DNA of 64,000 bases from Sinomonas atrocyanea (GCF_030811715.1 NZ_JAUSRH010000005.1:124001-188000); one strand, 5' to 3'. Shown: positions 30,312 to 58,902, counted from the stretch's first letter. The notes: generated by a model from the sequence alone, not told the origin. Made by a program: numbers and translations.

Positions 30312-31910
30312 CTAGCGGGCCGCAGTGCTACGCCGGGAGACCGAGGCGAGGCTGGCCGCGGCCCGTTGCGCTCCCCGCACGGCGAGGGCAACGCTCATGA
30401 GGGTTGGGTTCATCGTCGTCGCCGTGGGGATGAGCGCATTCCCTCCGACGACCAGGCCGTCGTAGCCCCACACACGGGACCACGGGTCGGCCACCGAGGT
30501 CCCGTCGTCGGTCTCGCCCATGCGCATCGTGCCCTGATAGTGCAGGCTCGAGCCGTTCGGCATGAGCCTGGGCTCGGCGACGAACTCGCCGAGCGCCGTG
30601 CCCGCGCGCCGGAGGCGTGCCGTTGCCTCGGCAATCTCTGCCTGCTCGGAGTCAGTGAGGGCGTAGGTGATGGTCATGGCGGGGAATCCCCGGTAGTCGA
30701 GTTCGCTGTCGTCGAAGGTGACGCCGTCCTCGAAGCGGGGGCGCTTGCGCAGACCGTAGCCCATGTTGACGTAGCCCCAGCGGTTGCCCGCGCGTGGGTG
30801 GGAGGGGTCCAGGGGGAAGGGGGTCGTCTCCGAGTACATGACCTGGACCGAGAAGGGGTGGTCGGGCTCGGAGAAGGGGATGCGGTTCACGGCGGCCACC
30901 GGATCGGCGGCGTTGAGCGCGCGGCGGGCAAGTTCGTCGTCGAGCTCGGCCTCGCTGACGAAGCGCTCCATCTTCTGGCCGTCGAGGGCTACGGTCGAGA
31001 TCACGACCGGGTGCTCCGTGAGGTAGCGGCCGAGGGCCGCGGGGCGGATCCCGGAGGCCCACAGGAGCTGGGGCGAGCGGAACGCGTCCGCGGCCACAAC
31101 CACCAGGTCGGCGGCCACGAAGGACGTGGTCCGGGTGCGCAGGTCCTCGACGGTGAGGCCGGTGACGCGAGTGCCGTCCAGCTCCACCTGCCGCACGAGG
31201 CTGAGGTCGCGCAGCTCGAAGCGGGCGGAGAGGGGTGAGGACGGGTCGATCAGTGGGCCCAGGACCACGTCGGCCCCCGCCCACCGCATCGAGCCGTCCG
31301 GCTGGGGGTCCCCGGCAACCGGCAGCGTGCCGACCCCGTAGCCCTCGGGCAGCTCGCCGGTGAACTCCTCCTCGAGCAGCGACCGGATGCCAGCTCCGAC
31401 CGCCGAGTCGGCGAACGCGGCACCCTGCACATGGAGGAGCTCCTTGGCCCTGCCGAGGAGGTCCTCCCACTCCCCGTCCGGGATGAAGGGCACCTTCTCG
31501 CTGAACGCGGGCGACGGCGTCGCGCACGTCCAGTGGGCCCCCTGGCCTCCGACGTTGGTCGCGGCAGCAGCGGCCGGGAACGTGGGGGCGTGGGCGGAGC
31601 CTTCGCCGCCGAAGTCGAGCAGGTGGGTGCCCTGGCGCGCGGTGAACATGCCCTCGACGACGGTGCCTGCAGGGATCCCGAGTGATTCGCGGTAGGCCCC
31701 GGCCTGCGGGCCCTGAGACATCTCGCGTGCCCGCGCCTTGGCCTCGGGGTCGGCGATGTTGCGCACGCTCTCCCCGGGGATGCCGCTGAGCTGCGGCCCG
31801 GCCTCGAACATGATCACGCGCGCCTCGGGATGTTCCTCAAGCAGGACCCTGGCATAGGCGGAGCCGACGGGGCCGCTGCCGACGATCGCGATCGTGGGGC
31901 TATCAGACAT
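30312..31910 (-). CDS. GMC/pyranose-oxidase-like FAD oxidoreductase, probable C-glycoside 3-oxidase 1
   Basis: Probably oxidises the C3 hydroxyl of a C-linked sugar, the step that makes the C-C bond breakable. 532 residues: FAD-binding AIVGSGPVGSAYARVL (8-23), NVGGQGAHWTCATP matching the pyranose 2-oxidase motif in which the His binds FAD, and catalytic His457 (SLHYQGTMRMGETDDGTS) with Asn501 (MNPTLMSVALAV). No signal peptide, so it is cytosolic. It lies 21 bases after the MFS gene in one operon; AAGGAG precedes the ATG. Neighbouring deglycosidase subunits point to the CarA/CGO type; a plain pyranose oxidase is the alternative. Confidence 0.83.
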   Translation of the reverse strand: MSDSPTIAIVGSGPVGSAYARVLLEEHPEARVIMFEAGPQLSGIPGESVRNIADPEAKARAREMSQGPQAGAYRESLGIPAGTVVEGMFTARQGTHLLDFGGEGSAHAPTFPAAAAATNVGGQGAHWTCATPSPAFSEKVPFIPDGEWEDLLGRAKELLHVQGAAFADSAVGAGIRSLLEEEFTGELPEGYGVGTLPVAGDPQPDGSMRWAGADVVLGPLIDPSSPLSARFELRDLSLVRQVELDGTRVTGLTVEDLRTRTTSFVAADLVVVAADAFRSPQLLWASGIRPAALGRYLTEHPVVISTVALDGQKMERFVSEAELDDELARRALNAADPVAAVNRIPFSEPDHPFSVQVMYSETTPFPLDPSHPRAGNRWGYVNMGYGLRKRPRFEDGVTFDDSELDYRGFPAMTITYALTDSEQAEIAEATARLRRAGTALGEFVAEPRLMPNGSSLHYQGTMRMGETDDGTSVADPWSRVWGYDGLVVGGNALIPTATTMNPTLMSVALAVRGAQRAAASLASVSRRSTAAR

Positions 31911-31931
31911 GGGAAGACTCCTTGCTCGAGG

Positions 31932-33422
31932 TTAGGCGGAGAGCGGTTCGTGGGTGGGGGACGGCTCGAGCTCGTCGGAGAGTCGCCCGTGGGGAAGGAG
32001 GAGCGCGGCGACGATCCCGAGGGCGTAGGTCAGCGCGAGCGCCCCGAAGATCGGGGCGAAGACGTCGTGGTAGATGCCCGCGACGGCGTCCTGCAGGGCC
32101 GCGTCCGCGGCATGCACGGCCTGCGGCGTGAGGTCCGCAGCGTCGGTGCCGGCCGGGAGGCGGGCGGCCACGCCGAAGCCGATCACCCCGCCGATGATCG
32201 CCGTTGCGAGGGTTGAGCCGACCTGGCGCGTGAGGTTCACCGTGGCCGTGACGACGCCGGTCTCCGTTCGGGGCGCCGCGTTCTGCACGACGGCGATGAT
32301 GAGGCTCATGAAGGCCCCCGTCCCGAGGCCCACGAGGGCCATGACGGCCATGGGGACCCAGAGCGGGAGCGCGGGCGGAAGCAGCGCCATGATCCCGAGC
32401 CCGAGGGTCCCCACCGAGGTCCCGATGATCGGGAAGGCGCGGTAGCGTCCGGTGCGGCTCGCGAGGAATCCGGTGAGCAGGTTGCTCACGAGCATGCCGA
32501 AGACCGTGGCGATGGGCACGAGCCCGGAGACGGTCGCGCTCGTCCGGTACGCCATCTGGAAGTAGGTGGGCAGGTAGGAGGTGATCGAGAACAGGCCGAT
32601 GCCGACGATCGAGGAGATGACGGTGCCCGCCGCGACGGTGCGGTTCGCGAAGTGGCGGAGGGGAATGAGCGGCTCCGCGGCCCGCCGTTCCGCGAGGAGG
32701 AAGAGGGCGAAGCCGACGACGGCCGCGGCGAAGGCGCCTGTGGCCGCGAGGCCGGCCGAAGGGTCCCCTGCCCACGAGACGCCCAGCACAAGCGCCACGA
32801 GGACGAAGGTGAACGCGACTGCCCCCGGGAGGTCGAAGCGGCGCCCCGCTCCGGTGCCCTCGAGGTGCGGGAGGGCGAGGACCGCGAGCACGAGGGCCAC
32901 TGCGCCCACCGGGAGGTTGACCCAGAAGACCCAGGGCCAGCCCCACGAGTCGGTGATGAGGCCGCCGAGGACGGGGCCTATGAGGATCGCCACGGGGAAG
33001 GCGGCGCCGACGATCGCCATGTAGCGCGGGCGCGCCCGCGGGGCGGCGACCTGGGCGATGATCGTCTGCGACATGAGCTGCAGGCCTGCTGAGCTCATGC
33101 CCTGCACGACACGGCAGGCGATGAGCCATCCCATGCTCGCCGCGAACCCGCATGCGAGAGAGGCCACGAGGAACAGGACGAGCGAGGACACGAACACAAG
33201 GCGGGGCCCGACGACGTCGCCGAGCTTGCCGAGCACGGGGATGAGGACCGTGCTCGCGAGGGTGTAGCCGACGACGACCCATCCCATGTGCTGGAGGGCG
33301 CCGAGCTGGCCGGCGACGGTCGCGAGCGAGGTCGAGACCACTGTGTTGTCGAGGGCTCCGAGGAAGGAGACGGCGAGGAGTGAAACGAGGGTGAGGCGGA
33401 GCCTCAGGAGCGAGAGCGGCAT
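31932..33422 (-). CDS. MFS transporter, 14-helix DHA2 type, paired with oxidase 1
   Basis: A 496-residue exporter-like transporter: LGALDNTVVSTSLATVAGQL in TM1, GKLGDVVGPRLVFVSSLVLF as motif A, and ILIGPVLGGLITD as motif C. I use the ATG at 33422, giving the normal MPLSLLRLRLTL start. The longer frame from 33536 begins inside the putative promoter and directly beside the operator. It is divergent from a ROK regulator and co-transcribed with the oxidase at 30312. It may export an aglycone or toxic intermediate, or import the glycoside; direction cannot be read from sequence. Confidence 0.88.
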   Translation of the reverse strand: MPLSLLRLRLTLVSLLAVSFLGALDNTVVSTSLATVAGQLGALQHMGWVVVGYTLASTVLIPVLGKLGDVVGPRLVFVSSLVLFLVASLACGFAASMGWLIACRVVQGMSSAGLQLMSQTIIAQVAAPRARPRYMAIVGAAFPVAILIGPVLGGLITDSWGWPWVFWVNLPVGAVALVLAVLALPHLEGTGAGRRFDLPGAVAFTFVLVALVLGVSWAGDPSAGLAATGAFAAAVVGFALFLLAERRAAEPLIPLRHFANRTVAAGTVISSIVGIGLFSITSYLPTYFQMAYRTSATVSGLVPIATVFGMLVSNLLTGFLASRTGRYRAFPIIGTSVGTLGLGIMALLPPALPLWVPMAVMALVGLGTGAFMSLIIAVVQNAAPRTETGVVTATVNLTRQVGSTLATAIIGGVIGFGVAARLPAGTDAADLTPQAVHAADAALQDAVAGIYHDVFAPIFGALALTYALGIVAALLLPHGRLSDELEPSPTHEPLSA

Positions 33423-33525
33423 GTGGCGTTGCCCGAACGATCGGGCCGTCGACGCGACGTATTGTGCCTGGCCCCGCAAGGTCACGGTCCAGAACGGGCT
33501 CCTGCGAACCCCGACGTCAGAGTTC

Positions 33526-33554
33526 AAACTACCCATTCTTTAGTCGAAAAACAA
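33526..33554 (-). promoter_or_regulatory. promoter of MFS-oxidase operon
   Basis: On the minus strand TTGTTT (33554-33549) and TAGTTT (33531-33526) are separated by exactly 17 bases, a fair sigma-70-type promoter about 104 bases upstream of the ATG at 33422. The palindrome at 33538-33560 covers the -35 box and most of the spacer. Confidence 0.5.
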
Positions 33555-33560: not shown

Positions 33561-33569
33561 AAAGTCGCG

Positions 33570-33597: not shown

Positions 33598-34863
33598 GTG
33601 AGCACAGACTCGACCCTTCGCTTCGGCGCCCAGACCGATGAGGTCACGAGCTTCCTGCGCATCGTCAACCTCGTGCGGAACGGGGAGGCGACCACGAGGC
33701 CCGAGATCGGGCGCGCCACCGGCCTCGGGCGCGGGGTGGTGGCCCAGCGGGTCGACCAGGCCATCCGGCTGGGGTTTCTCGAGGACGCCGAGTTCGGCCC
33801 CTCGTCCGGCGGCCGCGCCCCGCGGACGCTCCGTTTCAGGGCCGATCAGGGCCGCATTGTCGTCTGCGCCCTCGGGGTGCTCCACATCAGGGTCGGCATC
33901 GCGGCGCTCGATGGCGACATCCTGGACCAGGCGCATCGACGCTGGGAGATTGCCCGCGGGCCAGAGGAGACGCTCGACGCGGCCATGGCGCTCATCGACG
34001 AAGTCCTCGCCCGGGCGGGTGAGGACCGGCCCCTCTGGAGCGTCGTCGTCGGTCTGCCCGGCCCCGTCGACTTCGAGACGGGACGACCGGTAGCGCCGCC
34101 GATCATGCCGGGCTGGGACGGTTTCCCCGTGCGGGAACGCTTCGAGGATAGGTTCGACGCACCCGTTTGGGTGGACAACGACTCCAACCTCCTCGCGCTG
34201 AGCGAGCGGGCCCGGCGCCGAGCCGACCATGCGGACTTGATCTTCTGCAAGGTCGGGTCGGGCATCGGAGCCGGCCTGCTGTCGCAGGGGCGGCTCCACC
34301 GGGGCGCGAATGGCGCAGCGGGCGACATCGGGCACGTCCCTGTGGCGGGGGCCCGAGTCCAGTGCCGCTGCGGGAAGGTGGGCTGCCTCGAGGCGGTGGC
34401 CGGAGGCTGGGCCCTCGTCCGGGACGCCAAGCAGGCGATCGCCGAGGGCACGACGACCCAGCTCTCCGCTGTCCTCGACCAGGACGGGACCCTCTCGCCC
34501 GAGGACATCGCACGGGCGGCGAAGGACGGCGATGCCCTCGCAATCTCCCTCGTGCAGGCGTCCGGCCGCGTGGTAGGCGAGGCGATTGCAGGCTTGGTCA
34601 ACATGTTCAACCCCGCGGTGATCGTGGTGGGCGGGGCGCTGGCGTCTGCGAGCGAGGTCTACCTGGCCGAGATCCGCCGGCGTGTCTACGAGGTCTCCCA
34701 CCCCCTCGCCACCCGGGACCTGCAGATCCTCCTGTCCATGAACGATCAGCGCGAACCGCTCCGCGGCGGGGCCGAGCTCGCCCGCGAACAGCTGTTCGAG
34801 GTGACCTTCCCCCGGTGGTTCGCTGCGGGCCGCCCGTCGCGCGAGGGCGTGCCCGTCGGCTGA
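33598..34863 (+). CDS. ROK-family transcriptional regulator 1
   Basis: A 421-residue ROK repressor. Winged HTH at about residues 15-80 (NGEATTRPEIGRATGLGRGV and the wing GGRAPRTLRF), then the actin-like sugar-kinase fold (VGLPGPVDFETG, VDNDSNLLALSE, KVGSGIGAGLL). The zinc motif is intact: His246, Cys256, Cys258 and Cys263 (GDIGHVPV, CRCGKVGC). ROK proteins release DNA on binding a sugar or sugar derivative, so the inducer is probably a (keto-)sugar or the glycoside. The GTG start at 33598 has GGAG in front. Divergent from the MFS-oxidase operon, its likely target. Confidence 0.93.
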   Translation: MSTDSTLRFGAQTDEVTSFLRIVNLVRNGEATTRPEIGRATGLGRGVVAQRVDQAIRLGFLEDAEFGPSSGGRAPRTLRFRADQGRIVVCALGVLHIRVGIAALDGDILDQAHRRWEIARGPEETLDAAMALIDEVLARAGEDRPLWSVVVGLPGPVDFETGRPVAPPIMPGWDGFPVRERFEDRFDAPVWVDNDSNLLALSERARRRADHADLIFCKVGSGIGAGLLSQGRLHRGANGAAGDIGHVPVAGARVQCRCGKVGCLEAVAGGWALVRDAKQAIAEGTTTQLSAVLDQDGTLSPEDIARAAKDGDALAISLVQASGRVVGEAIAGLVNMFNPAVIVVGGALASASEVYLAEIRRRVYEVSHPLATRDLQILLSMNDQREPLRGGAELAREQLFEVTFPRWFAAGRPSREGVPVG

Positions 34864-34901: not shown

Positions 34902-35300
34902 TCAGGCCAGGACGACCTCGCGCTCCACGGAGACACGGTTGCCGACATAGCGCAGGGGAGCGATCTGCATGTAGAGCAGGCGCATCGTGAGGACGACCTG
35001 GACGTCGACCTTCTCCCCCGGGTCGGGAACCCGGTCGAGTGGGATGACGATGTCAGGCCTGTCGGCGACGAACCAGAGCGTGTCCCACTGGTCAGGCAGC
35101 TCGGCGATCGAGTAGGAGCGCCCCTGCAGCTCGAAGCGCAGCGACTCCTTGGGGATCTCGACCCCGCCGATGGTGGCCGCGACGTCGTCGACCGCCGAGA
35201 GCCACAGGCTCCGGTACCACGGGAGCTGCACCGAGACTGCGATGCCTTCGGGATGACGGCGCACGTCCGAGGCCTTGAAGAGCGAGTTGTGAGTTGCCAT
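34902..35300 (-). CDS. C-glycoside deglycosidase beta subunit 1 (DUF6379-type)
   Basis: A 132-residue beta-rich protein of the family described as the small subunit of C-glycoside deglycosidases (formerly DUF6379). With the alpha subunit it forms the complex that splits the C-C bond of 3-keto C-glycosides. Key pattern: PWYR at residues 27-30 followed by SLWLS, then QWDTLWFV and LLYMQIAP. The same PWYR position is kept in the other three beta genes here. AAGGAA precedes the ATG. It is third in a minus operon: alpha, broken SnoaL-like gene, beta. Confidence 0.86.
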   Translation of the reverse strand: MATHNSLFKASDVRRHPEGIAVSVQLPWYRSLWLSAVDDVAATIGGVEIPKESLRFELQGRSYSIAELPDQWDTLWFVADRPDIVIPLDRVPDPGEKVDVQVVLTMRLLYMQIAPLRYVGNRVSVEREVVLA

Positions 35301-35309: not shown

Positions 35310-35919
35310 TTACTCGAAAGTCTCGACGAACGTTTCGTAGGGTGCGGGAGGCTCAGGCTCCAGGGCCTGCTTCGTTGAAGGGCTGTAGGGGTGGTACTCG
35401 CTTGGCGCCTGCTCGTCTGCAGGAGGCATGAAGACCGGCTTCCCGTCATCGCCGAAGTACATGAGGTCGAGCGCGAAGGCGTGTTGGTTCTTCTCGGCGA
35501 AGCTGATCCAGTTCTCCTCGAAGGGGGCGCGGAGCAGCTCGTAGCAGCGGAATTTCCAGATCTTCCACTCGCCGTCCTGACGCAGGAAGTCGACCGCGTA
35601 CTTGCACCACACCCAGTGCGCCCAGACCCTCTTCCCCTGCACTTCGCCGGGCGAATACATGAAATCGGGGCTCTCCTTGGCGACTTCGGGGTCCGTGAGG
35701 CCAGACTCCGCGCCGGCCATGATCCAGACGCCCTTGGCGGTCTCGCGGGATGATCCGCTCATCCTGGAACGCATTGTGCAGGTACATGTAGCGGTTGAAG
35801 AGGTTCTCGATCTCGCCGCGGTCATTGGCGCGGCGCGCCAGCCGGAGGGCCTCGTCGAGCTGGGCGCGGAGGAGCTCGACTTCAGCTCCGATGCCGGCCT
35901 CGGTCCCGGCGTCAGGCAT
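35310..35919 (-). pseudogene. frameshifted SnoaL/NTF2-like gene between deglycosidase subunits
   Basis: Two protein pieces lie in different minus frames. The first runs from ATG 35919 for 58 residues (IENLFNRYMYLHNAF is the typical SnoaL N-terminal helix) and then goes out of frame. The second, in another frame from about 35745 to the stop at 35310, begins ETAKGVWIMAG and continues SPDFMYSPGEVQGKRVWAHW to the end, with no start of its own. The joint is at about 35745. SnoaL-like proteins usually have tens of residues between these segments, so a deletion as well as a frameshift is likely. The ATG overlaps the alpha-subunit stop by eight bases, so it was once coupled. A sequencing error cannot be excluded. 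Confidence 0.78.
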
Positions 35920-36955
35920 GGCTGGCCTCCTCGACCTGAGCCGCCGCATCCTCGATGGCCCGGGCCATGAGGGCATGCTGCTTCTTGACGAGGTCGATCG
36001 GGTCGGACTCGCCGAGGTCTGCGAAGGCATGGCCCTCCCATTCACTGGAGAGGAAGCCCTTGTAGCCGCCGACGACGAACTGGCGGACGATGCGCGGGAT
36101 GTCCATGGCCGGCTCGTCGCCGTTCTCATCGATGTCGTAGAACTTGGCATGCACGTGGAAGATCTGCGGCATGATGTCGAGCCACTCCTCCGGCGCGACG
36201 AGTCCGTGCATGTTGAAGGCGAGTCGCGTGAACGGACCCAGATAAGCGGGATCGAAGCCGTGCGCGCGCAGGTGGTCCTCGAACTCCTGATTGCGCTCGT
36301 GCATCGGCAGCGGCTTGCGCCACACCTCTTCCATGACAGCGAAGTGCTCTTCGGGGAGGCCCATCTGCCGGAGCGTCCGGAAGAGGGTGGGCGAAAGGCT
36401 GTGCATGGTCGAGCTGAAGTCGGCCGTGAACCCGAGGCGGTCGCTTCCGAGTTCCTCGTACATCTCTCGGATCTGCACCACGGCCGGGTCATTCGGGCCC
36501 GACGGGGCGTGGATCTCGTAGCCGAGCCTCTGGTCGTACTTCTCGGCGAGCGGAAGGAGGCGACGCAGCAGCTCCTTGCCTGCCGAGCGGATGACGACGC
36601 GGGGGAACCTCAGACGGTGGGCCGTCTTGAGCTGGGCGGCGAGGAACTCGTACTCCTCGTCGGGCGTCATGTCACGCTCCTTGCGGCGCCCCATGTCGAG
36701 GTTGGTGCCGACGGCGCTGGGGGTGAGGCCGTGGCGGTCCATGCTCTCGCGCCAGAAGCGCACGAACTCGTCGTCGACGTGGGGATAGGTCCGCAGCATC
36801 TGGGCGATGTTGAACTCGACGCCCGGCCCGAGGCCCTCGTCAGCCACCGCCTGGACCAGGGTCTCGGGGGTGTAGAGCCCGGCCGCGAACTCCGAGGTGA
36901 GCGAGTAGAGCGTGATCCCGAGCTCGATGTCCGTGCCCGCAATGCCTGGCGCCAT
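35912..36955 (-). CDS. C-glycoside deglycosidase alpha subunit 1 (TIM barrel)
   Basis: A 347-residue xylose-isomerase-like TIM barrel, the catalytic partner of the beta subunit at 34902. Probable metal ligands are Glu147 (GYEIHAP), Asp179 (TADFSSTMH), His269 (FHVHAKFYDIDENG) and Glu305 (SSEWEGHA). His149 and His185 are also conserved with the closest paralogue at 47131. The protein begins with LGITLYSLTSE, a family hallmark. AGAAGGGA precedes the ATG. It is the first gene of its operon, with a strong-looking promoter and an operator, divergent from ROK2. It should cleave 3-keto C-glycosides made by the oxidases; sugar isomerase activity is the alternative. Confidence 0.87.
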   Translation of the reverse strand: MAPGIAGTDIELGITLYSLTSEFAAGLYTPETLVQAVADEGLGPGVEFNIAQMLRTYPHVDDEFVRFWRESMDRHGLTPSAVGTNLDMGRRKERDMTPDEEYEFLAAQLKTAHRLRFPRVVIRSAGKELLRRLLPLAEKYDQRLGYEIHAPSGPNDPAVVQIREMYEELGSDRLGFTADFSSTMHSLSPTLFRTLRQMGLPEEHFAVMEEVWRKPLPMHERNQEFEDHLRAHGFDPAYLGPFTRLAFNMHGLVAPEEWLDIMPQIFHVHAKFYDIDENGDEPAMDIPRIVRQFVVGGYKGFLSSEWEGHAFADLGESDPIDLVKKQHALMARAIEDAAAQVEEASHA

Positions 36956-36998
36956 GGTGGTCCCTTCTCTGGAGTGACTTCTTTGTCAGGTTTCGATG

Positions 36999-37028
36999 AT
37001 GCTAATGTCGGATTTAGACATAAGTCAA
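36999..37028 (-). promoter_or_regulatory. promoter and operator of deglycosidase 1 operon
   Basis: On the minus strand TTGACT (37028-37023) and TAGCAT (37004-36999) are 18 bases apart. The spacer is filled by a dyad TTATGTC-N7-GACATTA (37023-37003; arms ATGTC/GACAT perfect). Binding there would block RNA polymerase directly. ROK2, starting at 37044, is the likely binder. Confidence 0.6.
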
Positions 37029-37043
37029 TGGAGGTCCGCGGTC

Positions 37044-38198
37044 ATGACGCAGCCCAGAAGGGGCACCGCGAGCAGTGCGCTTGCCCTCGTCGTCGACCTC
37101 GTCCGGACCGGACGCGGCTCGACCGCTGCCGAGCTCGTGAGGAGCTCGGGCTTCACCCGTCGGCGCGTGGACGCCCTCGTGGACGAGGCGCTGCAGCTCG
37201 GCCTGCTCGACGGGGACCCGGAGGGGGTGGACTGGGGACATGCCCGCGCCCGGGTCACATTCCCGCACAGGCGAGGTCGCTTCGCCATCGCGGCGTTCGG
37301 CCCGCTCGAGCTAGAACTTGCCGTGACAGACCTTCGGGGGAGCGTGCTCGCGGGCCGCAGCGAACGGTGGGACCCCCAAGCAGGCCCCATGGCTTCCCTC
37401 GGGCATGCGTTCTCGCACCTCGATGCGCTGATCGCCGCCGATCCCGCCCCCATGTGGGGCTCCGCCGTGGGCCTCCCGCCCTCAGCAGGCTGGACGACGT
37501 CCGACGCCGTCGCGGCCGCCGGGCGGTACGGGGCCCCCGCCTGGACAGAGACCACGCTCGGACTCGAGGCCCGCGGCGAGCTGGCGCGACGGCCGGGATT
37601 GGGCGGAGACATCCTGTACGTCACGGTAGGCACGGGACTCGGCGCGATGCTGGCTGGCTGCGCCGACCGCGCCGCCGTCGTGCTGCGGCCGATCGCAAGC
37701 CCCCCCGCAGCCTCCGACGGCGTGGTCCGGCGGGCTGAAGCTGCGGCCCGGGAGGGCCGCAGCTTCTTCCTGCGAGCCCGCCTCGCCGAGGCGTGGGCCC
37801 TCGACCCCGCCGACGTCGCGGACGGGGCGGAGCGCGGCGACCCCGAATGCCGGGACCTCCTGGTCCGCGCCGCCGCGGACGCCGGCGGAGCCATCGCGGG
37901 GATGGTCAGCGCGCAACGGCCGGCCCTCGTCGTCGTCGGCGGGGGCGCCGCTAGGAGTCCGGCTTTCCTCGCCGCGCTGCGGGCCACCGTCTACGCGCGG
38001 GCGCTTCCTGCTGCAACCCGGGACCTGGAGATCGTCCCGGCGGCGCCCTCGAGCGCCGTCATCGGCGCCGCCCGGACCCTCACGAGCCGCGTGTTCGGGT
38101 GTGAGATGGCCGCATGGGTCCGGATGGGACGCCCGCTACCGCTCGTCGGAGAGCCGTCGGTAGGTGAAGCGGCGGAAGCGGGCCGCGCCCTCGCCTGA
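37044..38198 (+). CDS. ROK-family-like regulator 2, zinc motif lost
   Basis: A 384-residue ROK-type regulator: HTH at about 15-55 (RGSTAAELVRSSGFTRRRVD), then an actin-like domain (ILYVTVGTGLGAMLAG, GAIAGMVSAQRPALVVVGGG). It lacks the GHxxx...CxCGxxGC zinc segment and the kinase Asp-rich loops that ROK1 keeps, so it may not sense sugar the same way. GGAGG is eight bases before ATG 37044; upstream in-frame ATGs lie in the operator. Its last 63 bases overlap the convergent GH43 gene. Confidence 0.85.
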   Translation: MTQPRRGTASSALALVVDLVRTGRGSTAAELVRSSGFTRRRVDALVDEALQLGLLDGDPEGVDWGHARARVTFPHRRGRFAIAAFGPLELELAVTDLRGSVLAGRSERWDPQAGPMASLGHAFSHLDALIAADPAPMWGSAVGLPPSAGWTTSDAVAAAGRYGAPAWTETTLGLEARGELARRPGLGGDILYVTVGTGLGAMLAGCADRAAVVLRPIASPPAASDGVVRRAEAAAREGRSFFLRARLAEAWALDPADVADGAERGDPECRDLLVRAAADAGGAIAGMVSAQRPALVVVGGGAARSPAFLAALRATVYARALPAATRDLEIVPAAPSSAVIGAARTLTSRVFGCEMAAWVRMGRPLPLVGEPSVGEAAEAGRALA

Positions 38199-39608: not shown

Positions 39609-39703
39609 ATTCACCAAACTTATGCCCAAAAGATGCGCAAGTCATTAGGCTGTGGGAAGTGTGTCCCGGGCCACTTTGTTCCGGGCCGATCAGAGGAGGC
39701 GGC

Positions 39704-41878: not shown

Positions 41879-41887
41879 GCCACATCC

Positions 41888-41954: not shown

Positions 41955-42019
41955 CAAAACCACCCCCACCCGCCGGCACCCTCGCCGGCCCGACGATGAA
42001 GTCAATGAGAGGCCTGACC

Positions 42020-43318: not shown

Positions 43319-43330
43319 CCGGCGCCCCGT

Positions 43331-43360
43331 GTGGGGGACGGCCACGCGGCCGTCCCCCAC
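43331..43360 (+). terminator. intercistronic hairpin after binding-protein gene
   Basis: A perfect 13-bp stem (GTGGGGGACGGCC at 43331-43343, complement at 43348-43360) with an ACGC loop, 12 bases after the binding-protein stop and 28 before the permease start. In ABC operons such hairpins keep binding-protein mRNA abundant by partial termination or 3' protection. Confidence 0.75.
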
Positions 43361-43387
43361 AGTGCAAGCCCTAGGAGAACGAAAGAC

Positions 43388-44326: not shown

Positions 44327-44328
44327 CC

Positions 44329-51797: not shown

Positions 51798-51808
51798 GGG
51801 GACACGCC

Positions 51809-51850
51809 GAAGGGGCGGCCCTGGAGGATTCCCTGCAGGGCCGCCCCTTC
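51809..51850. terminator. bidirectional hairpin terminator
   Basis: A perfect 15-bp inverted repeat, GAAGGGGCGGCCCTG (51809-51823) and its complement (51836-51850), with a 12-base loop. It lies between the convergent GH78 gene and the last gene of the minus operon, ending both. Confidence 0.85.
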
Positions 51851-51862
51851 GTCCTCCGTTCC

Positions 51863-52834
51863 TCAGACCCGGGCCACCCCCAGCTCGTGCTGGATGAACC
51901 AGCTGTTGAGCATGGCGAGCTCGCTCGGGTTGCTGCCGTGATCGCTCTCGACGACGACCCAACCGCGGTAGTCCTGGGCGCGCAGCTCCGTCACGAACCC
52001 TTCGACGTCGACCAGGCCGCCCTCGGTGCCGAGCTCGTAGAACCAGCGCTCGATCCGGCGTCCCGCGCCGCCCCGGAGCATGGTCATCTCGGCGGCCGGA
52101 GCGAGGAACTCCTCCCCCGTGTCGGCGTACCGGGTGTCCTTGAGGTGGACGTGCGACACCCGGTCTCCGTGGTCCCGGAGGAAGGCGACGGGGTCGATCC
52201 CGGCGATGGCGAACTCGGCCGTGTCGAGGGCGAGGCCCACGAGGGCCGGATCCGCCGCCCCGAGGAACGTCTCGAGCTGGGCGCGGGTGTGGATCCCGGA
52301 CAGGCAGTCGTAGTGCGCGGCGAGGCCGATCCCGGCCTCCCGCGCCTCCTGGCCGACCCGGTTCCACAGGGAGGCCACGAGGCCGATCGCGCCGTCATCG
52401 AGCAGGCCCGTCATCCAGGCGGAGCCGACGGGACGCACCACGAGCTGCTCGGCGCCGATGTCGGCGAGGAACCGGATGAACGGACGGGCTGCCTCCACGA
52501 TCCCGTCGTGGTGGGAGGGATCGAGCGGGGTCCTGAACTCCCAGCCCTCCTCCTCGGCCGGCTGGCCCGGGTCCCAGAACATGCTGGAGACCCCGGCGAG
52601 CGAGCCCCGGCGGAGGAATGCTGTGAAGCCTTCGCTGCTGCCGTGGTTGAGCAGGATGGTCTCGGGCCGGCCGAGGTTGTCCCACCGGCCCGTGCCGGAG
52701 GAGAGCTCGATGTGCTCGAACCCCAGCACGGACACGGTGCGGAATGCCCTCAGCTGCTCCTCGTGCCGCACGAAGACATCCATCCGCGGGTTCCACTGGT
52801 TCAGGGCGTAGGCCCAGCGCAGAGTGTCCTTCAC
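51863..52834 (-). CDS. sugar phosphate isomerase/epimerase family protein (IolE-like)
   Basis: A 323-residue TIM barrel starting WAYALNQWNPRMDVF. The C-terminal half has LALDTAEFAIAG, SHVHLKDTRYA and VVVESDH, the metal-binding strands of the IolE/epimerase group. GTG 52834 overlaps the stop of the upstream gene by four bases (GTGA). It is the last gene of an eight-gene minus operon and would act on a keto-inositol or 3-keto sugar. The exact reaction is unknown. Confidence 0.83.
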   Translation of the reverse strand: MKDTLRWAYALNQWNPRMDVFVRHEEQLRAFRTVSVLGFEHIELSSGTGRWDNLGRPETILLNHGSSEGFTAFLRRGSLAGVSSMFWDPGQPAEEEGWEFRTPLDPSHHDGIVEAARPFIRFLADIGAEQLVVRPVGSAWMTGLLDDGAIGLVASLWNRVGQEAREAGIGLAAHYDCLSGIHTRAQLETFLGAADPALVGLALDTAEFAIAGIDPVAFLRDHGDRVSHVHLKDTRYADTGEEFLAPAAEMTMLRGGAGRRIERWFYELGTEGGLVDVEGFVTELRAQDYRGWVVVESDHGSNPSELAMLNSWFIQHELGVARV

Positions 52835-53808
52835 CGCACGCTCCCCTCGGTCACGAGCTGCGCCTCGGCTTCCGCCTGGGCTTGGCCGAGCACCGTGTCG
52901 ATATACCACTTGGCCACGCACGTCGCCTCGGCGTAGCTGCCGCCGCCGAGGTCAGCCTTGTCGTGCTCGACCGTCAGCCAGCCGTCGTAGCCGGACGCGA
53001 CGATCTCGCGCATGAGCGCCGGGAAGTCGACGAGCCCGCCCTCCGTGCCCATCTCGTAGAACCAGCGGTCCACCCCTGGGGCCATGAGTTCGGCGTCCGG
53101 TGGGGTCCGGTAGGCCTCGTTCGTGTCCACGGTATGGGTGTCCTTGAAGTGGAACCCGGTGCAGCGGTCACGGTAATCGCGGAACATCTGGATCGGGTCC
53201 ACGCCGGCGATGGTGTGCTGGGCGGTGTCGCAGAAGAAGTGCACATAGCGCGGGTCCGTGTTCTCGAAGAAGAGATCGAGCTGCTCGCGGGTGCGGATCG
53301 CGCCCCAGAACTCGAAGTGGCACGTGGTCTTCAGGCCGTGCTCGAGGGTCATCTCGCCGACGCGGTTCCACAGCTCGGCCATGGCCTTGATCTTGTCGTG
53401 GGTGACCGGCTCCGTCTGGAAGTAGGTGCTCGAGGGCATGACGATGAAGTTCTCGACCGAGAGCCCCTCGAGCGCGCGGACCGTGTGGAGGCTGTCCGCG
53501 AAGATGCGATCGTGCGTCTCCCGGACGTGCGGCGCGGTGTACTCGGTAGCGTAGGGGTAGGCCGAGAAGATGCCGGTGATCTTGTCGAAGCCGTTGTCCT
53601 GCAGGAACTCCTCGAACTTCTTCACCGAGCCGTACATGCCCTCGAGCATCGGCAGGTAGAAGAAGAACGTGTCGAAACCGCGGAATCCGAGGGACGAGAG
53701 CTGCTTGATGTAGCGGTCCATGTGGGCGCGGTTGAACGACGGTGGGAGAGGCCCCTGCGGCGTCTGCGTCACCCAATGGTCCATGTAGGACCACTTGGTC
53801 CAGGTCAT
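52831..53808 (-). CDS. sugar phosphate isomerase/epimerase family protein
   Basis: A 325-residue TIM barrel: KWSYMDHWVTQT at the start, TCHFEFWGAI, FFCDTAQHTIAG, GFHFKDTHTVD and WLTVEHDK give the Glu/Asp/His/Glu metal site. It is related to its downstream neighbour at about the family level. The ATG overlaps the Gfo/Idh stop by four bases. Together these barrels and the dehydrogenase resemble 3-keto-glycoside pathways such as E. coli ycjQRS. Confidence 0.83.
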   Translation of the reverse strand: MTWTKWSYMDHWVTQTPQGPLPPSFNRAHMDRYIKQLSSLGFRGFDTFFFYLPMLEGMYGSVKKFEEFLQDNGFDKITGIFSAYPYATEYTAPHVRETHDRIFADSLHTVRALEGLSVENFIVMPSSTYFQTEPVTHDKIKAMAELWNRVGEMTLEHGLKTTCHFEFWGAIRTREQLDLFFENTDPRYVHFFCDTAQHTIAGVDPIQMFRDYRDRCTGFHFKDTHTVDTNEAYRTPPDAELMAPGVDRWFYEMGTEGGLVDFPALMREIVASGYDGWLTVEHDKADLGGGSYAEATCVAKWYIDTVLGQAQAEAEAQLVTEGSVR

Positions 53809-55007
53809 GACGTCACGCTCCTTTCGAGTGGGTGGATGTCGAGCCAGGCGGACCCTGCCTCGGAGCTGCGTTCGACGGCGTCCAGCACCCGCTGGACCTG
53901 CAGTCCGTCCGCGAACGACGGCGCGGGCTGCTTCCCCGCCGCGATCGCCCCCACGAGGTCCCTGACCTGGTTCGAGAAGCCGTGTTCGTAGCCGAGCCCG
54001 TGCCCGGCCGGCCACCAGGCCCCCGCGTAGGGGTGCTCGGGCTCGGTGACGAGGATGCGGCGGAAGCCGGCGTTGGCGCCGTCGGACGTCGTGTACAGCT
54101 CGAGCTCGTTGAGCCGCTCGAGGTCGAACGCGATCGCGCCCTCCGTGCCGCTGATCTCGAAGCGCAGGCCGTTCTTGCGGCCCATTGCCATACGCGTCGC
54201 CTCGAACGTCGCCACGCCGCCCCCGATGAGCGCTCCCGTGAAGAGGGCCGCGTCGTCGACCGTCACGGGCCCGCGCTCAGCGCCGCCCGTTCCCGGCAGG
54301 CCCACCGAGGAACCGAGCACCGGGCGCTCCGTGACGAAGGTGCGCAGGAGTCCGCTCACGGACTCGATGCTCTCGCCGGTCACGTACTGGACCATGTCCA
54401 CGATGTGCGCGCCGAGGTCGCCGAGGGCGCCGGAGCCGGCGATCCGCTTGTCGAGCCGCCAGGTGAGCGGTGCGTCTTCGGAGGCCAGCCAGTCTTGGAG
54501 GTAGGCGGCGCGGGCCTGCCGGACCGCACCGATCTCCCCTGCGGCAATCAGGTCGCGGGCCAGAGCGGTGGCCGGGACCCGGCGGTAGGTGAAGCCGACC
54601 ATCGCGAAGACCCTGCGCTCGGCGGCCTCCGCGGCGGCCTCGGCCATCGCCTCGGCCTCCCCGACCGTGTTGGCCAGCGGCTTCTCGCACAGCACATGCT
54701 TCCCGGCCCGCAGCGCAGCGATGGCGATCTCCGCGTGGCTGTCGCTCGGGGTGCAGATGTCGATCAGGTCGATGTCCTCGCGCTCGATGACCTCGCGCCA
54801 GTCCGTCGCTGCCTCGCGCCAGCCCAGCTTCGCGGCCGCCTTCTCGGCCTGCTCCCGATCGCGGCCGACGACGACGGCCATGTCCACCTCGAGCGGGAGG
54901 TCGAAGAACCGCGGCGCGGTGCGCCAGCCCTGCGAATGCGCCGCGCCCATGAAGCCGTACCCGATCATCGCGACGCGCAGCGCCTTGGCTGCTCTCGGCG
55001 TCGTCAT
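53805..55007 (-). CDS. Gfo/Idh/MocA-family sugar dehydrogenase
   Basis: A 400-residue NAD(P)-dependent oxidoreductase. The Rossmann loop is [13 protein letters not shown] (16-28), EKP at 107-109 is the catalytic lysine motif, and GDLGAHIVD gives Asp196 and His200. It could reduce the freed 3-keto sugar to the normal sugar, or oxidise a sugar at C3; YcjS, a glucoside 3-dehydrogenase, is in this family. Starts and stops overlap by four bases on both sides. Confidence 0.88.
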
Positions 55008-56023
55008 GACCGCCTCCCCATCGCATCAGCGGAGAACGCGGCGTCGAAGGCGGCAGCGGACGGTTCGAGGGCGTTGCGCCGGACGAAGTCGAGCGCCTGG
55101 GGCGCCCCGACGAGCCGGTCCATCCCGGCGTCCTCCCATTCAACCGAGAAGGGGCCCTCGTAGCCGATCGCGTTGAGGGTGCGGAAGCAGCGCTGCCATG
55201 GGACATCGCCCAGGCCAACCGAGACGAAGTCCCAGCCCCGGCGGGGATCGGCCCACGCGAGGTGCGAGGAAAGGCGGGCGGCGCGCCCGTCACCGGTCTG
55301 GACCTTCGAGTCCTTGCAGTGCACGTGGTAGATCCGGTCCGAGAAGTCGAGGAGGAAGCCGACCGGGTCGACCTGCTGCCAGACCATGTGGCTCGGGTCC
55401 CAGTTGATGCCGAACGCGGGCCGGTGGCCGATCTCCTCGAGCGCGCGCTTCGCGGTCCAGTAGTCGTACGCGATCTCGGACGGATGCACCTCGAACGCGA
55501 AGCGCACGCCGACCTCGTCGAAGACGTCCAGGATCGGGTTCCACCGGTCGGCGAAGTCCCGGTACCCGGCCTCGATCATCTTCTCCGAGACCGGCGGGAA
55601 CATCGCCACCGTCTTCCAGATCGCCGAGCCGGTGAAGCCGGTCACGGTCTTCACGCCCAGCTTGGCCGCCATCCTCGCGGTGTCCTTCATCTCCGCTGCG
55701 GCGCGGCGGCGGACGCCCTCGGGTTCCCCGTCGCCCCACACCCGCTCCGGGAGGATGTCCCGGTGCCGCTCGTCGATCGGATCGTCGCACACCGCCTGCC
55801 CCACGAGGTGGTTCGAGATCGCGAACACCTGGAGGCCGTTGCGCTCGAGGATCTCGCGGCGGCCGGCGACGTAGGCGTCGTCGTCCCAGCGGGAGACGTC
55901 GAGGTGGTCGCCCCACGAGGCGATCTCAAGCCCGTCGTAGCCCCATTCGCCCGCGAGCCGGGCCACCTCCTCGAACGGCAGGTCGGCCCATTGGCCGGTG
56001 AACAAGGTGATAGGTCGCGTCAT
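55004..56023 (-). CDS. sugar phosphate isomerase/epimerase family protein
   Basis: A 339-residue TIM barrel starting [18 protein letters not shown]. Metal site by motif: [27 protein letters not shown] and FSVEWED. This subgroup is often next to Gfo/Idh genes in sugar and inositol operons. It is the first of four tightly overlapping genes that handle the sugar part, directly after the deglycosidase alpha 4 gene (20 bases). Confidence 0.85.
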
Positions 56024-56043
56024 CGCGTTCCCTCCTTCTCTCT

Positions 56044-56961
56044 TCAGCTCTGCTTCTCAGCGGCGAGGAGTCGCAGCAGCGCGTGCTGGCGTCGCAGCTG
56101 GTCCGCGGCCCGGCCCGTCGCGTAGTCGCCCTCGTATTCGCTCGAGAGGTAGCCGCTCCATTGGTGCCGGTCGAGCACGTCGAGGATCTCCCGCCACGGG
56201 ATGTGGCGGTCCACGAGCTCGTCGTCGATCTCGTAGAACTTCGCCTGGATGTGCACCACCTTGTCGATGACGTCCTCGAGGTCCGAGACCGGGACCACGG
56301 GCGTGATCGGCGGCCGGGCGGAGCCGTCACCCAGACGGCTCGCGACCCCGCCCCCCCGGCGGTGCATCGACGTCTGGAAGACACCGGTGTCCATGAGCAG
56401 CCCGAAGTGCTCGGTTCCGGTGCGGTCGATGAATCCGAGGTAGTCGTCGACGACCTTGGACTTGATGACCGAGGGCCAGTGGATCTCGGGGCAGATGACC
56501 ACGTCGAGCTCGGCCGCGAGGTCGAGCACGCGTTCGGTGGCCGGCTCCCAGACGGGGTCCGGCTCGAGATCGGAGGTGACGACGCCGAGCTTGGGGCGCA
56601 GGAAGCGAAAGCCGAGCCGGGCCGCGAGCCGGAGGTCCGTCTCGAGCTGGTTGACGGCCTCATCCTCGGTCAGGCTCCGCCCGGCGAAGCGGCGTGTGTC
56701 CACCCACGAGCCGTAGCACGTGGGCTCGAGCCGGTACCGCTCGAGCGCCATGAACCAGGAGTCGACCCACTCGGCCTTGGGTCCGGGGTAGCCGGGGATG
56801 TGCGCCTCGCCGAGGATCTCAATGCCGGTGGCGCCGAGGTCGGCGACGTCCTCGATGCAGTCCTCGAGCGTGAGCGTGACGCCGTACTCGTTGGTGTAGC
56901 TGTAGAGCGAGACGCCGTACTTGAGGTCGGCACTGCCCGCTGCTGTCGGTTGCGTGCTCAT
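56044..56961 (-). CDS. C-glycoside deglycosidase alpha subunit 4, divergent
   Basis: A 305-residue barrel with the family start [13 protein letters not shown]. It has Glu159 (CPEIHWP), Asp191 (LLMDTGVFQ), then [11 protein letters not shown] and Glu275 (SSEYEGDY). At the third ligand position it has Gln239 where the other three alphas have His, and it is about 30-70 residues shorter. It overlaps the beta 4 stop by four bases. It lies in one operon with oxidase 2. The change may alter the metal or the substrate. Confidence 0.8.
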
Positions 56962-57347
56962 CGTGTGATCGCCATCCTGCGTTCCTCGGTCGAGATCGTG
57001 GGCTGGAGTTCTTCGGGGATGTAGGACATCCGCAGGCGGAGGTCCACGGCCACGTCATGGAATCCGACGCCGAGGGGCTCCGACGCGGGGACGATGAGCG
57101 TGGCCGGCTCGTCGACGGCCCACCGCAGCGAGGTCGACGACGTCAGCTCGCCGAGCGTGTACTCCTCGCCGCCGAGGCGCCAGCGGACGGACTCCGCGGG
57201 GTAGGCGACGCCGTCGACAGTGACCGAGGCCCCCTCGAGGAGGCTGGCCCACTGGCCGCGGTAGTAGGGGAGGCGGACCCTCAGTTCGAAGCCGCCGTCG
57301 TCGCGGTTCCGGAATCCGCGCGTCTGGATCATGGTCGTGTCAAGCAC
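56958..57347 (-). CDS. C-glycoside deglycosidase beta subunit 4, divergent
   Basis: A 129-residue beta homologue with PYYR at residues 27-30 in place of PWYR, RWRLGGEEYTLGEL and LRLRMSYIPEELQ. I choose the GTG at 57347 because AAGGAGG lies five bases ahead and the PYYR then sits where PWYR sits in the other betas; ATG 57332 would have no SD. It overlaps the oxidase 2 stop by eight bases. Confidence 0.8.
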   Translation of the reverse strand: MLDTTMIQTRGFRNRDDGGFELRVRLPYYRGQWASLLEGASVTVDGVAYPAESVRWRLGGEEYTLGELTSSTSLRWAVDEPATLIVPASEPLGVGFHDVAVDLRLRMSYIPEELQPTISTEERRMAITR

Positions 57348-58902
57348 TTCTTCCTCCTTCGGTGTCGGAGACGAGCTGCGCGCCGAGACGCGCCGCGATG
57401 TCCCGCGCGCCGCCGACCGCGAGCGCGACCGACGTGAGCGTCGGGTTGCACGCGATGGGCGTCGGGATGACGTTGTTCCCCGCGACGTAGAGCCCGTCCA
57501 CGCCCCAGACCTGGCTCGTGGGCCCGCAGACCGACGTGCCGTCGTCGTGGGCTCCCATGCGGGTAGTGCCCTGGTAGTGCAGGGACGCGCCCGGCGCCAG
57601 CACGAGCGGCGCGTCGCCGATGGGCCGACCGAGGGCGCCCGCGGCGCGCCGGATCGCGGCCTGTGCCGCGTCGATGGTTGCGTGGTCGCGCTCGGTGAGC
57701 CCGTAGTGGACGGCGACGGCGGGAAGGCCCCACTCGTCCAGCCGCGTCGGCGAGAACTCGAGCCGGTCCTCGGGGCGGAGGTCCTTGGCGCAGAACCAGC
57801 CGAGGCCCACGATGGTGCCGGGCGCCGGTTCGTCCTCGTCAACCAGCGGGATCGGCGAGGCATCGAGCTGCATGACCTGCCCGTGGAACGGCTCCCTGTC
57901 CGTAAACGGGACCCACGAAACGCCGCCCTGTTCGACGATCGTGCCGTCCTCGGCCGCGCGCCGGTGGTCCACCTCAGCGTCGTCCACTCCGTCAAGGCGG
58001 ACGGCGAAGACGATCTGCGGCTGGTCGTTGAGGTACCGGCCGAGGGCCTCGGGCCGCACCTCGGAGGCGAAGAGCAGCTGGGGCGTCCGCAGCGCGTCGG
58101 CTGCGACGACCACGGCCCGGGCCCGGACCTCGTGGGCCTCGCCGCTCTGCCTGTCGAGGACGCGCACTCCCACGGCGCGTCCGTCCTCGACGAGCACGCG
58201 CTGCACCTGGGCCTCGGCGAACAGCTCGAAGCGCGGATTGGAGCGGGTCACGGCGCCGAAGACGACATCGGGGCCGCTCCAGGCGAGCGACCCGTCGTCG
58301 TGCACGGTCACCGCCAGGGGCATAGGGGCTATGCGCCGGCCGGGTGCCCGGTCGCGGTCGAACTCGGCGGCGAGGCGCTCCCGGACGACGTCGGCGAACG
58401 GCGCGCCGGCGAAGGGGTCCGGATTGACCCCGAGGATCCGCTGGGCCTCGCGCAGCCAGTCGTCCAACTCGGGCAGGAACCCGATGCGCTCCGACTCGCC
58501 GGGGACCGGGCACGCGCAGGTCCAGTGCGCGCCCATGCCGCCGACGTTCGCGGACATCGCGAGGGCCGGCATGCCGGCGCCGTCGGCGGGATCCGGGGAC
58601 TCGGGGAGCAGGAACGTGCCCGGCCGCACGACCCGCCGCGACGGGTCCGCATAGGAGCGCTCCCCCGCGACGACCGTGTGGGGGTGGAGCCCCTCCGAGC
58701 CGCGCTGGGCCCGCGCCCGGGCGGCGTCGTCGGCGATGTTCTTCACGTGGAGCCCCGGCGGGTCCGCCAGGAGCGGCCCGACCTCGAACATCGCGATCGT
58801 CGCCTCGGGCAGCCGCTCGCTCAGGATGCGTGCGTAGGCGGCCCCGGTGGGGCCGCTGCCGACGATCGCGACGTCGACGGCAGCGGGGAACGAGCGCGCC
58901 AC
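57340..58902 (-). CDS. GMC/pyranose-oxidase-like FAD oxidoreductase, probable C-glycoside 3-oxidase 2
   Basis: A 520-residue oxidase: FAD loop AIVGSGPTGAAYARIL, ANVGGMGAHWTCACP, catalytic His442 (SLHYQGTTRMGAHDDGTS) and Asn486 (CNPTLTSVALAV). The His-Asn spacing of 44 equals that of oxidase 1. It starts with GTG five bases after the VOC gene. The two oxidases share the fold but differ in the middle substrate region, suggesting different glycosides. Its operon adds a deglycosidase pair and ring-cleavage dioxygenase. Confidence 0.84.
   Translation of the reverse strand: MARSFPAAVDVAIVGSGPTGAAYARILSERLPEATIAMFEVGPLLADPPGLHVKNIADDAARARAQRGSEGLHPHTVVAGERSYADPSRRVVRPGTFLLPESPDPADGAGMPALAMSANVGGMGAHWTCACPVPGESERIGFLPELDDWLREAQRILGVNPDPFAGAPFADVVRERLAAEFDRDRAPGRRIAPMPLAVTVHDDGSLAWSGPDVVFGAVTRSNPRFELFAEAQVQRVLVEDGRAVGVRVLDRQSGEAHEVRARAVVVAADALRTPQLLFASEVRPEALGRYLNDQPQIVFAVRLDGVDDAEVDHRRAAEDGTIVEQGGVSWVPFTDREPFHGQVMQLDASPIPLVDEDEPAPGTIVGLGWFCAKDLRPEDRLEFSPTRLDEWGLPAVAVHYGLTERDHATIDAAQAAIRRAAGALGRPIGDAPLVLAPGASLHYQGTTRMGAHDDGTSVCGPTSQVWGVDGLYVAGNNVIPTPIACNPTLTSVALAVGGARDIAARLGAQLVSDTEGGRSA

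Follow-up and report, generated by a model that had tools for sequence, protein, structure and literature searches.

C-glycosides withstand glycosidases, and in the open-access literature the published accounts of soil pathways mainly cover the first two steps (papers are cited here by PubMed Central accession). Two C-glycoside deglycosidase (CGD) homologues have been reported from Arthrobacter globiformis (PMC8563793) and two CGD pairs from Pseudarthrobacter siccitolerans (PMC10646112), and PurA and PurBC have been described in Paenarthrobacter (PMC12724307). Here we describe a gene island of the soil actinobacterium Sinomonas atrocyanea that carries four alpha/beta CGD pairs along with two glycoside-3-oxidase-like genes, and that lies in a stretch of 64,000 nucleotides (nt) (NZ_JAUSRH010000005.1:124001-188000, hereafter ‘the window’) taken from a genome of 4.23 Mb in 27 contigs. 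Drawing on the genes present, the families they belong to, their conserved residues, and the pairing and conserved linkage of the genes, we read this island, with a probability of roughly 0.8, as a nearly complete route for the breakdown of C-glycosyl polyphenols of plants, with flavones as the likeliest substrates.

Systems of this kind have already been published, and it is the multi-lyase, near-complete form that has hardly been described: a search of the open-access literature, with most subscription papers lying outside it, returned no island of four or five lyase types, no link to ring cleavage, and no study of the third pair or of the fifth lyase type introduced below. As a member of this known kind the island is well supported, and it exceeds the clusters published in that literature in both size and completeness. 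Together with its relatives, it appears to unite import, removal of O-linked sugars, oxidation, carbon-carbon cleavage, sugar recovery and ring opening at one site, and its four lyase types, conserved across genera, make specificities directly comparable and substrate range and step order testable.

Four candidate lyase pairs

The original prediction, made from the sequence alone, had taken four pairs of TIM-barrel and DUF6379-type genes in this region for CGD alpha and beta subunits. Gene borders checked on the sequence coincide with the positions it gave for the pairs, and the family assignment held on both sides: all four betas score above the curated cut-off of the CGDB profile (PF19906), which places them inside the small-subunit family, and for each of the four alphas the eight best PDB matches are CGD alphas (alpha 3 has a weak ninth, 4ovx). 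These four are the only CGDB matches in the whole genome, and the same profile search gave no match in 14 control genomes. Pair 1 consists of b1 (34902..35300, minus strand; CGDB 51 bits) and a1 (35912..36955, minus strand; PDB 7dnm_A, 686 bits). On the plus strand, pair 2 comprises b2 (45176..45595; CGDB 48 bits, best PDB match 7dnm_B) and a2 (45592..46716; 7dnm_A, 194 bits, with its best fold match to the same chain at a template-modelling (TM) score of 0.82), and is followed by pair 3, with b3 (46703..47131; TTG start, CGDB 55 bits) and a3 (47131..48138; 7dnm_A, 446 bits). Pair 4 returns to the minus strand with b4 (56958..57332; CGDB 102-106 bits) and a4 (56044..56961; 8qrz, 329 bits, and 7bvs, 225 bits). 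In pairs 2, 3 and 4 the alpha and beta genes share 1-4 nt where they meet, an arrangement seen in translational coupling.

The alphas are xylose-isomerase-like TIM barrels that in Pfam match only AP_endonuc_2 (36-58 bits), as would be expected if one or more of the divergent alphas were ordinary sugar isomerases or epimerases that share the TIM barrel. We regard this as extremely improbable in view of their similarity to deglycosidase alphas, the kept catalytic dyad and metal site, the overlap with a CGDB partner in pairs 2-4 and the fused homologues of types 3 and 4. In the numbering of AgCGD2 (after PMC8563793), residues E147, H149, D179, K271, E305 and E307 are invariant in all four window alphas; the catalytic H149 and E307 are thus kept throughout, and the metal ligands E147, D179, H269, K271 and E305 are present five out of five in a1, a2 and a3 and four out of five in a4. 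All 32 aligned relatives of type 4 likewise carry Gln, in place of His, at metal-ligand position 269. For alpha 2, a model built from 18 sequences (predicted local distance difference test score, pLDDT, 90.9) was used in a fold search, and in this alpha-2 search the first 16 PDB matches were deglycosidase chains, a plain isomerase ranking 17th, so that the protein does not group with plain isomerases.

The gap of 611 nt between a1 and b1 contains the remnant of a SnoaL-like gene (35310..35919, minus strand). Alignment with its unbroken counterpart in Arthrobacter sp. StoSoilB13 shows that it has lost its frame through a 167-nt internal deletion. The intact StoSoilB13 copy belongs to SnoaL_4 (66 bits), the C-terminal piece of the broken gene is without a Pfam family, and 49 of 80 related loci have a match to the C-terminal part of the gene. 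These loci, to which all counts out of 80 below refer, come from a scan of a genome collection with an alpha-2 alignment; of the 111 loci confirmed in it, the best 80 were taken, with flanks of up to 10 kb.

Sequence comparison makes pair 1 the orthologue of AgCGD2: its alpha and beta are 87% and 83% identical to those of the A. globiformis locus (L058), whose beta equals 7dnm_B over the printed stretch. Among the compounds tested, AgCGD2 took only the C8-glycoside type of orientin, and MiCGD, AgCGD1 and MtCGD, which carry Ala or Gly at a position of the aglycone site, act mainly on C6-glycosides (PMC8563793). At the site of AgCGD2 Asn248-Met249, 80 type-2 alphas have Asn-Gly (73), Asn-Ala (4), Ala-Ala (1) or Asn-Ile (2), with the residue after Asn248 in alpha 2 counted from the sequence motif. 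Because 78 of these 80 relatives have Gly or Ala there, pair 2 is probably of the AgCGD1/MtCGD type. Pair 4 is, by its match of 329 bits, close to the solved Microbacterium testaceum enzyme (8qrz/8un2), and for pair 3 our comparison with characterised deglycosidases found no orthologue. The suggestion that pairs 2 and 4 were the uncharacterised ones was therefore not borne out, pair 4 having a solved near relative and pair 2 belonging to a common type.

Lyase types and their partners across genomes

All four alpha types occur together in 30 of the 80 loci, three in 9, two in 37 and one in 4, and the four-type island is thus not unique to this genome. The loci with all four types include that of A. 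globiformis NBRC 12137, the source of AgCGD2 (L058), in which a fifth pair accompanies types 1 to 4. CGDB genes are uncommon: counting this genome, there are 2 carriers among 15 genomes of the genus, 6 in a family sample of 245 and 16 in an order sample of 396. Since 6 of those 16 order-sample carriers have four or five CGDB matches (two of these six include one match under the cut-off), four pairs are a common state among carriers. The island is probably an accessory trait, and is likely to be mobile. One conjugative-typed Arthrobacter plasmid (L025:7301-15104, plus strand) holds a compact module of GH3, GH78, oxidase, b2 and a2 next to a peptide-type ATP-binding cassette (ABC) importer, and in the plasmid copy of StoSoilB13 (L023:13893-14997) a2 is split by a frameshift, which may be an error or real.

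In a tree of the alphas, with types set by identity thresholds before the tree was built and sequences shorter than 230 residues left out (3 of 40 a3, 1 of 33 a4 and 3 of 60 of the fifth type), each type forms a single clade that includes the window's own member (a1 74/74, a2 81/81, a3 38/38, a4 33/33). Betas were labelled by their neighbouring alpha, through a shared reading frame or gene order, and four stretches that were short or contained stops were excluded; labelling by nearest alpha had proved ambiguous for fused pairs, scoring 3/11 for pair 3 and 23/48 for pair 4, and was replaced. With these labels the betas fall into corresponding clades: b1 70/70 in a clade of 71 (support 0.91), b2 81/81 (0.73), b4 23/23 (0.98) and b3 34/38 (0.84). 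Beta and alpha share one open reading frame in 34 of 40 cases for a3 and 22 of 33 for a4, compared with 1 of 73 for a1 and none of 80 for a2, the order being beta-alpha in the loci inspected (L015, L022, L023, L058, L076), and for types 3 and 4 these fusions speak in favour of the pairing. Together with the matching beta clades, they also lend indirect support to a predicted alpha-beta complex.

These trees also bear on whether the four pairs divide labour at all, or are redundant copies of overlapping specificity that raise gene dosage. Known deglycosidases do overlap in part, AgCGD1 and MtCGD both accepting compounds 3-5 of the study concerned (PMC8563793). The window's types, however, are deeply diverged (alphas 3, 2 and 4 are 61, 35 and 29% identical to alpha 1), they keep separate clades across genera and their betas track the alphas, all of which makes recent duplication unlikely; we hold mere redundancy to be quite unlikely.

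Many related islands also contain a fifth CGD-like alpha/beta type, frequently encoded on the opposite strand (for example L058:14879-15904, L039:17773-19221 and L023:22639-23709, all minus strand), of which the window showed no copy. Its alphas have Gln in place of the catalytic His149 in 54 of 57 sequences and Gly in place of Glu307 in 53 of 57, the metal ligands are retained, each in 54-57 of the 57, and 16 of 60 are in frame with a beta.

Proposed oxidation, sugar recovery and ring cleavage

The two GMC genes had been predicted to encode oxidases of the C-glycoside type, and PDB matches place both in the glycoside-3-oxidase family. The product of ox2 (57340..58902, minus strand), a putative FAD-dependent glycoside 3-oxidase, matches 7qf8 (PsG3Ox by its entry name) at 644 bits and 7dve (MtCarA) at 617 bits, and its substrate loop LDASP fits clade IV. 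That of ox1 (30312..31910, minus strand; Pfam GMC_oxred) is a glycoside 3-oxidase-like FAD-dependent protein with matches to 8qve (370 bits), 7qf8 (347 bits) and 7dve (336 bits); its loop, SETTPFPLDP, is near the clade II consensus SETTPFPMDP, and its flavinylation motif, GAHW, is as in clade IV, the clade II motif being printed as GAWH (PMC10807413). Clades are judged here by motif, and for ox1 the motifs point two ways. The motifs HYQGT and NPT, which would supply the catalytic His and Asn, start at residues 457 and 501 of ox1 and 442 and 486 of ox2, and correspond, judged by motif, to H440 and N484 of PsPOx (PMC10807413). Both proteins stay below the 545-bit cut-off of the pyranose oxidase equivalog TIGR02462, at 166 and 186 bits. 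The clade II oxidase MPOx acts on aspalathin and phlorizin (PMC11673046), and since its host also carries a clade IV gene, there is a precedent for a genome with two oxidases.

Between GH78 and pair 4 lies the putative sugar arm, on the minus strand. T55 (55004..56023), the proposed hydratase of 2-hydroxy-3-keto-glucal, matches the hydratase 8ro4 at 127 bits over 313 residues, and is closer to 2zds, a Streptomyces coelicolor protein (523 bits); no paper was found in the open-access literature under the hydratase name or DUF6379. A Gfo/Idh/MocA oxidoreductase gene (53805..55007; Pfam GFO_IDH_MocA), which overlaps T55, would encode the 3-keto-glucose reductase. Next to it are two IolE-like TIM barrels, T52 (52831..53808) and T51 (51863..52834), paralogues with 34% identity that score 75 and 77 bits on TIGR04379, under the cut-off, and whose joint profile matches IolE (3cny) at 86 bits; they are found in 18 (T52) and 20 (T51) of the 80 loci. 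A further TIM barrel, T48 (48153..48929, plus strand), is hydroxypyruvate-isomerase-like (Pfam 135 bits; TIGR03234 133 bits, under the cut-off) and belongs to the conserved core, as seen from linkage: ox2-like genes were matched in 75 of the 80 loci, T48 in 74, a1 in 73, the Gfo/Idh/MocA gene in 70 and T55 in 64. The window's order of binding protein, two permeases, b2, a2, b3, a3 and T48 recurs in Microbispora siamensis and in the metagenome-assembled genome (MAG) NANO1, and the order b4-a4-T55-Gfo-T52-T51 recurs in MAG NANO1; in most Arthrobacter and Microbacterium loci gene order differs from that of the window.

By Pfam families, the importer, three glycosidases and aglycone-type pathway named in the original prediction are all present. 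The ABC sugar importer (41996..45171, plus strand; SBP_bac_1 and BPD_transp_1; matched in 68-71 of the 80 loci) comprises a binding protein (41996-43318) and two permeases (43331-44326 and 44329-45171), and the glycosidases are assigned to GH43 (38136..39629, minus strand; Glyco_hydro_43, 261 bits), GH3 (39599..41878, plus strand; N and C domains of Glyco_hydro_3) and GH78, an alpha-L-rhamnosidase family (48984..51797, plus strand; Bac_rhamnosid6H, 352 bits). A major facilitator superfamily (MFS) transporter (31932..33536, minus strand; MFS_1) lies near ox1 here and in several relatives, with 66-70% identity in L016, L023 and L058. Two ROK proteins complete this part: ROK1 (33598..34863, plus strand; Pfam ROK), a ROK-family regulator that occurs in the conserved island and is matched in 54 of the 80 loci, and the ROK-like ROK2 (36996..38198, plus strand; Pfam ROK, 29 bits).

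The end proposed for the island, 58902, proved too early, as genes of a ring-cleavage type continue to 63309. Directly beyond ox2, and at the head of the same minus-strand run as ox2-b4-a4-T55-Gfo, lies a VOC extradiol-dioxygenase-like gene proposed to act in A-ring cleavage (58907..59923; Pfam Glyoxalase; TIGR03211 238 bits, under the cut-off of 320). On the plus strand follow genes for an FAA-hydrolase family protein (60188..61174; Pfam 195 bits), a putative cyclase family protein (61171..62151; PF04199, 71 bits) and an FAD-dependent aromatic monooxygenase, the proposed A-ring hydroxylase (62152..63309; FAD_binding_3; NF005313 404 bits, over the cut-off of a model named hypothetical protein). 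Past 63309 the genes for an amidohydrolase and a second FAA hydrolase continue beyond the window's end, and those for an alpha/beta hydrolase and a LysR protein come with them, so that most of this stretch lies outside the window.

We assign both the hydratase-like and reductase-like genes of the sugar arm and this aromatic-ring-cleavage module to the island. An extradiol dioxygenase together with an FAA hydrolase is a frequent combination in aromatic pathways, and the module could be an unrelated pathway of that kind that happens to adjoin the island, as the VOC homologues in 17 CGDB-free genomes of the family sample would allow. We think this unlikely. The VOC gene is the first of a minus-strand run that it shares with the oxidase, the lyase pair and the sugar-arm genes; homologues of all four ring genes lie near CGD genes in StoSoilB13 (on a 1-Mb plasmid) and in a second genome, G230; and in Deinococcus aetherius an analogous run of VOC, cyclase, FAA hydrolase and flavoprotein genes adjoins the CGD genes. 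In the 245-genome family sample, a close VOC homologue (E ≤ 1e-60) occurs in 5 of 6 genomes with CGDB versus 17 of 239 without (Fisher p 2e-5; 4 of 5 and p 2e-4 when this genome is left out), and in four of the five genomes it lies within 20 kb of CGDB on the same contig. The VOC homologue thus goes with CGD genes and also serves elsewhere.

Taken together, the genes suggest the following route, of which every activity, the substrates, the step order and the lyase assignment are predictions from sequence. Glycosides would be taken up by the ABC importer and the MFS carrier, and the GH78, GH3 and GH43 enzymes would strip O-linked rhamnose, glucose or pentose. Oxidases ox1 and ox2, which differ in their substrate loops, would then oxidise carbon 3 of the C-linked sugar, and the four metal-dependent alpha/beta lyases (Mn2+ in solved relatives) would cleave the carbon-carbon bond by beta-elimination, with His149 and Glu307 of the alpha in catalysis and the beta holding the aglycone. 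Pair 1 may serve C8-glucosides, pair 2 probably C6-glycosides, and pairs 3 and 4 other positions, sugars or aglycones. T55 would hydrate the released 2-hydroxy-3-keto-glucal and the Gfo/Idh/MocA enzyme reduce 3-keto-glucose to glucose, while the flavin monooxygenase, VOC dioxygenase, cyclase and FAA hydrolase would hydroxylate and open the A ring of the aglycone. The original picture of a full multi-substrate C-glycoside locus is upheld in its enzyme families, importer, glycosidases and aglycone-type pathway, and falls short where it looks to pairs 2 and 4 for the uncharacterised activities.

Several observations weigh against this pathway or parts of it. The 80 relatives were chosen for their a2-type gene, so the linkage counts do not come from a random sample. 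Alpha 4 has Gln at the position of the AgCGD2 metal ligand His269, as does the solved M. testaceum enzyme 8qrz, and one of the four betas that fall outside the b3 clade is that of the window. At the aglycone site alpha 2 carries Leu, where its two nearest relatives, from Microbispora and MAG NANO1, carry Ile, and a shift in its specificity may have followed. For the ring-cleavage module, flank matches in the 80 loci are few, with VOC (at least 60% identity) in 12, FAA hydrolase (at least 40%) in 6, cyclase (at least 60%) in 4 and monooxygenase (at least 50%) in 3, counts that are bounded by the flanks of up to 10 kb; one genome (G010) carries CGDB with no VOC match at E 1e-60, and in another (G075) some 1.6 Mb separates the VOC homologue from the closer of the CGDB genes. 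Given this distance and the VOC homologues in CGDB-free genomes, C-glycosides are not the sole context of the ring module.

The GH78, GH3 and GH43 families act on O-glycosides. It may be asked, then, whether the island mainly serves O-glycosides, with 3-keto-O-glycosides undergoing beta-elimination and C-glycosides being handled as a side activity. Reported activities point in this direction, as PurA is relatively strong on O-glycosides (PMC12724307), PuCGE also eliminates 3-keto-phlorizin (PMC13273386), and phlorizin as well as aspalathin is oxidised by MPOx (PMC11673046). Oxidised O-glycosides are, however, reported to decay non-enzymatically (PMC12724307), which would render four lyases superfluous, and the isolated PuCGE alpha has low O-activity and, in the consulted text, none on the 3-keto-C-glycoside (PMC13273386), while a beta is kept beside all four window alphas. 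An O-glycoside island therefore seems to us very unlikely, and we retain the C-glycoside pathway.

Within that pathway the lyases might also work as a relay, a doubtful extension that we put forward tentatively. The four types would strip C-linked sugars from different positions of one molecule, enabling use of di-C-glycosylflavones such as the 6,8-di-C-glycosides vicenin-2 or schaftoside, and of flavone carbons 6 and 8 it would be the clearing of carbon 8 that lets the monooxygenase and the VOC dioxygenase attack the A ring. In the fde and ifc pathways, position 8 of the flavonoid is hydroxylated and the A ring then dioxygenated, and IfcA is inactive on isoflavone glycosides (PMC11069340); by analogy, this suggests that C8 may have to be freed before A-ring attack. 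If true, the relay would to our knowledge be the first known whole route from a di-C-glycoside to central metabolism, and would give pair 3 an undescribed specificity.

Other features of the window lie around these genes. A 16-bp inverted repeat (51808-51851) between the convergent GH78 and T51 operons is probably a two-way terminator. The palindrome ATCAYTCAAARTGAT sits before the importer operon and between the VOC and FAA-hydrolase genes; its two exact matches are there by construction, because the pattern was derived from those two sites, and it was dropped as a shared operator after a single-strand scan of 1.9 Mb of related loci gave no hit at up to one mismatch. Upstream of the island, a minus-strand block (24244-29828) encodes, by Pfam, a luciferase-like monooxygenase, a TauD dioxygenase, an NMT1-type ABC transporter and a flavin reductase, and looks like a system for sulfur-source acquisition (use of sulfonates or sulfur esters). 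It was rejected as part of the island, since its luciferase-like and TauD genes (two of its six genes were tested) had no match in six island loci; across the 80 loci the luciferase-like gene had one weak match (32%, L034) and the TauD gene none. Further upstream, 16793-22894 (plus strand) encodes a probable surface protein of 2033 residues, rich in bacterial Ig/cadherin-like and fibronectin type III domains.

Comparison with described systems

Among characterised deglycosidases, AgCGD2 (AgCarB2-C2; 7dnm/7dnn) is the closest to pair 1, which keeps its metal and catalytic residues as well as P241, F242, N248 and M249. Their loci differ: that of AgCGD2 has an extra fifth pair and no SnoaL-like gene was matched in it, whereas the window has the broken SnoaL-like gene between a1 and b1. 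Pair 2 is likened to AgCGD1, MtCGD and MiCGD/CarBC (PMC8563793) through the site residue of its type-2 relatives, and its type occurs in both A. globiformis and M. trichothecenolyticum. With the M. testaceum enzyme (8qrz, 8un2), a4 shares Gln at position 269, but 8qrz is a single chain of 435 residues, to whose C-terminal part a4 aligns, whereas pair 4 of the window consists of two overlapping genes. Compared with DfgA-B/EuCGD (7bvs), to which a4 matches at 225 bits, the ligand position differs, 7bvs having His at 269.

At the level of whole clusters, the PsG3Ox locus of P. siccitolerans 4J27 (PMC10646112) resembles the window in that a clade IV oxidase adjoins CGD pairs; the consulted text names two pairs, and the locus of the same strain in our set (L076) shows four types and the fifth. 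The oxidation-elimination-hydration-reduction logic proposed here is likewise that of the Agrobacterium O-glycoside operon of GlycDH, AtOGE, AtHYD and Gfo (PMC10628242), from which the window differs in having an FAD oxidase for GlycDH and alpha/beta CGDs for AtOGE. For the aglycone, the fde pathway of Herbaspirillum and the ifc pathway of Variovorax (PMC11069340, PMC11303751) follow an analogous logic, in which a flavin monooxygenase and a glyoxalase-type dioxygenase act on the A ring; the likeness is drawn at the level of family type, and ifc also employs cupin-family enzymes (PMC11069340).

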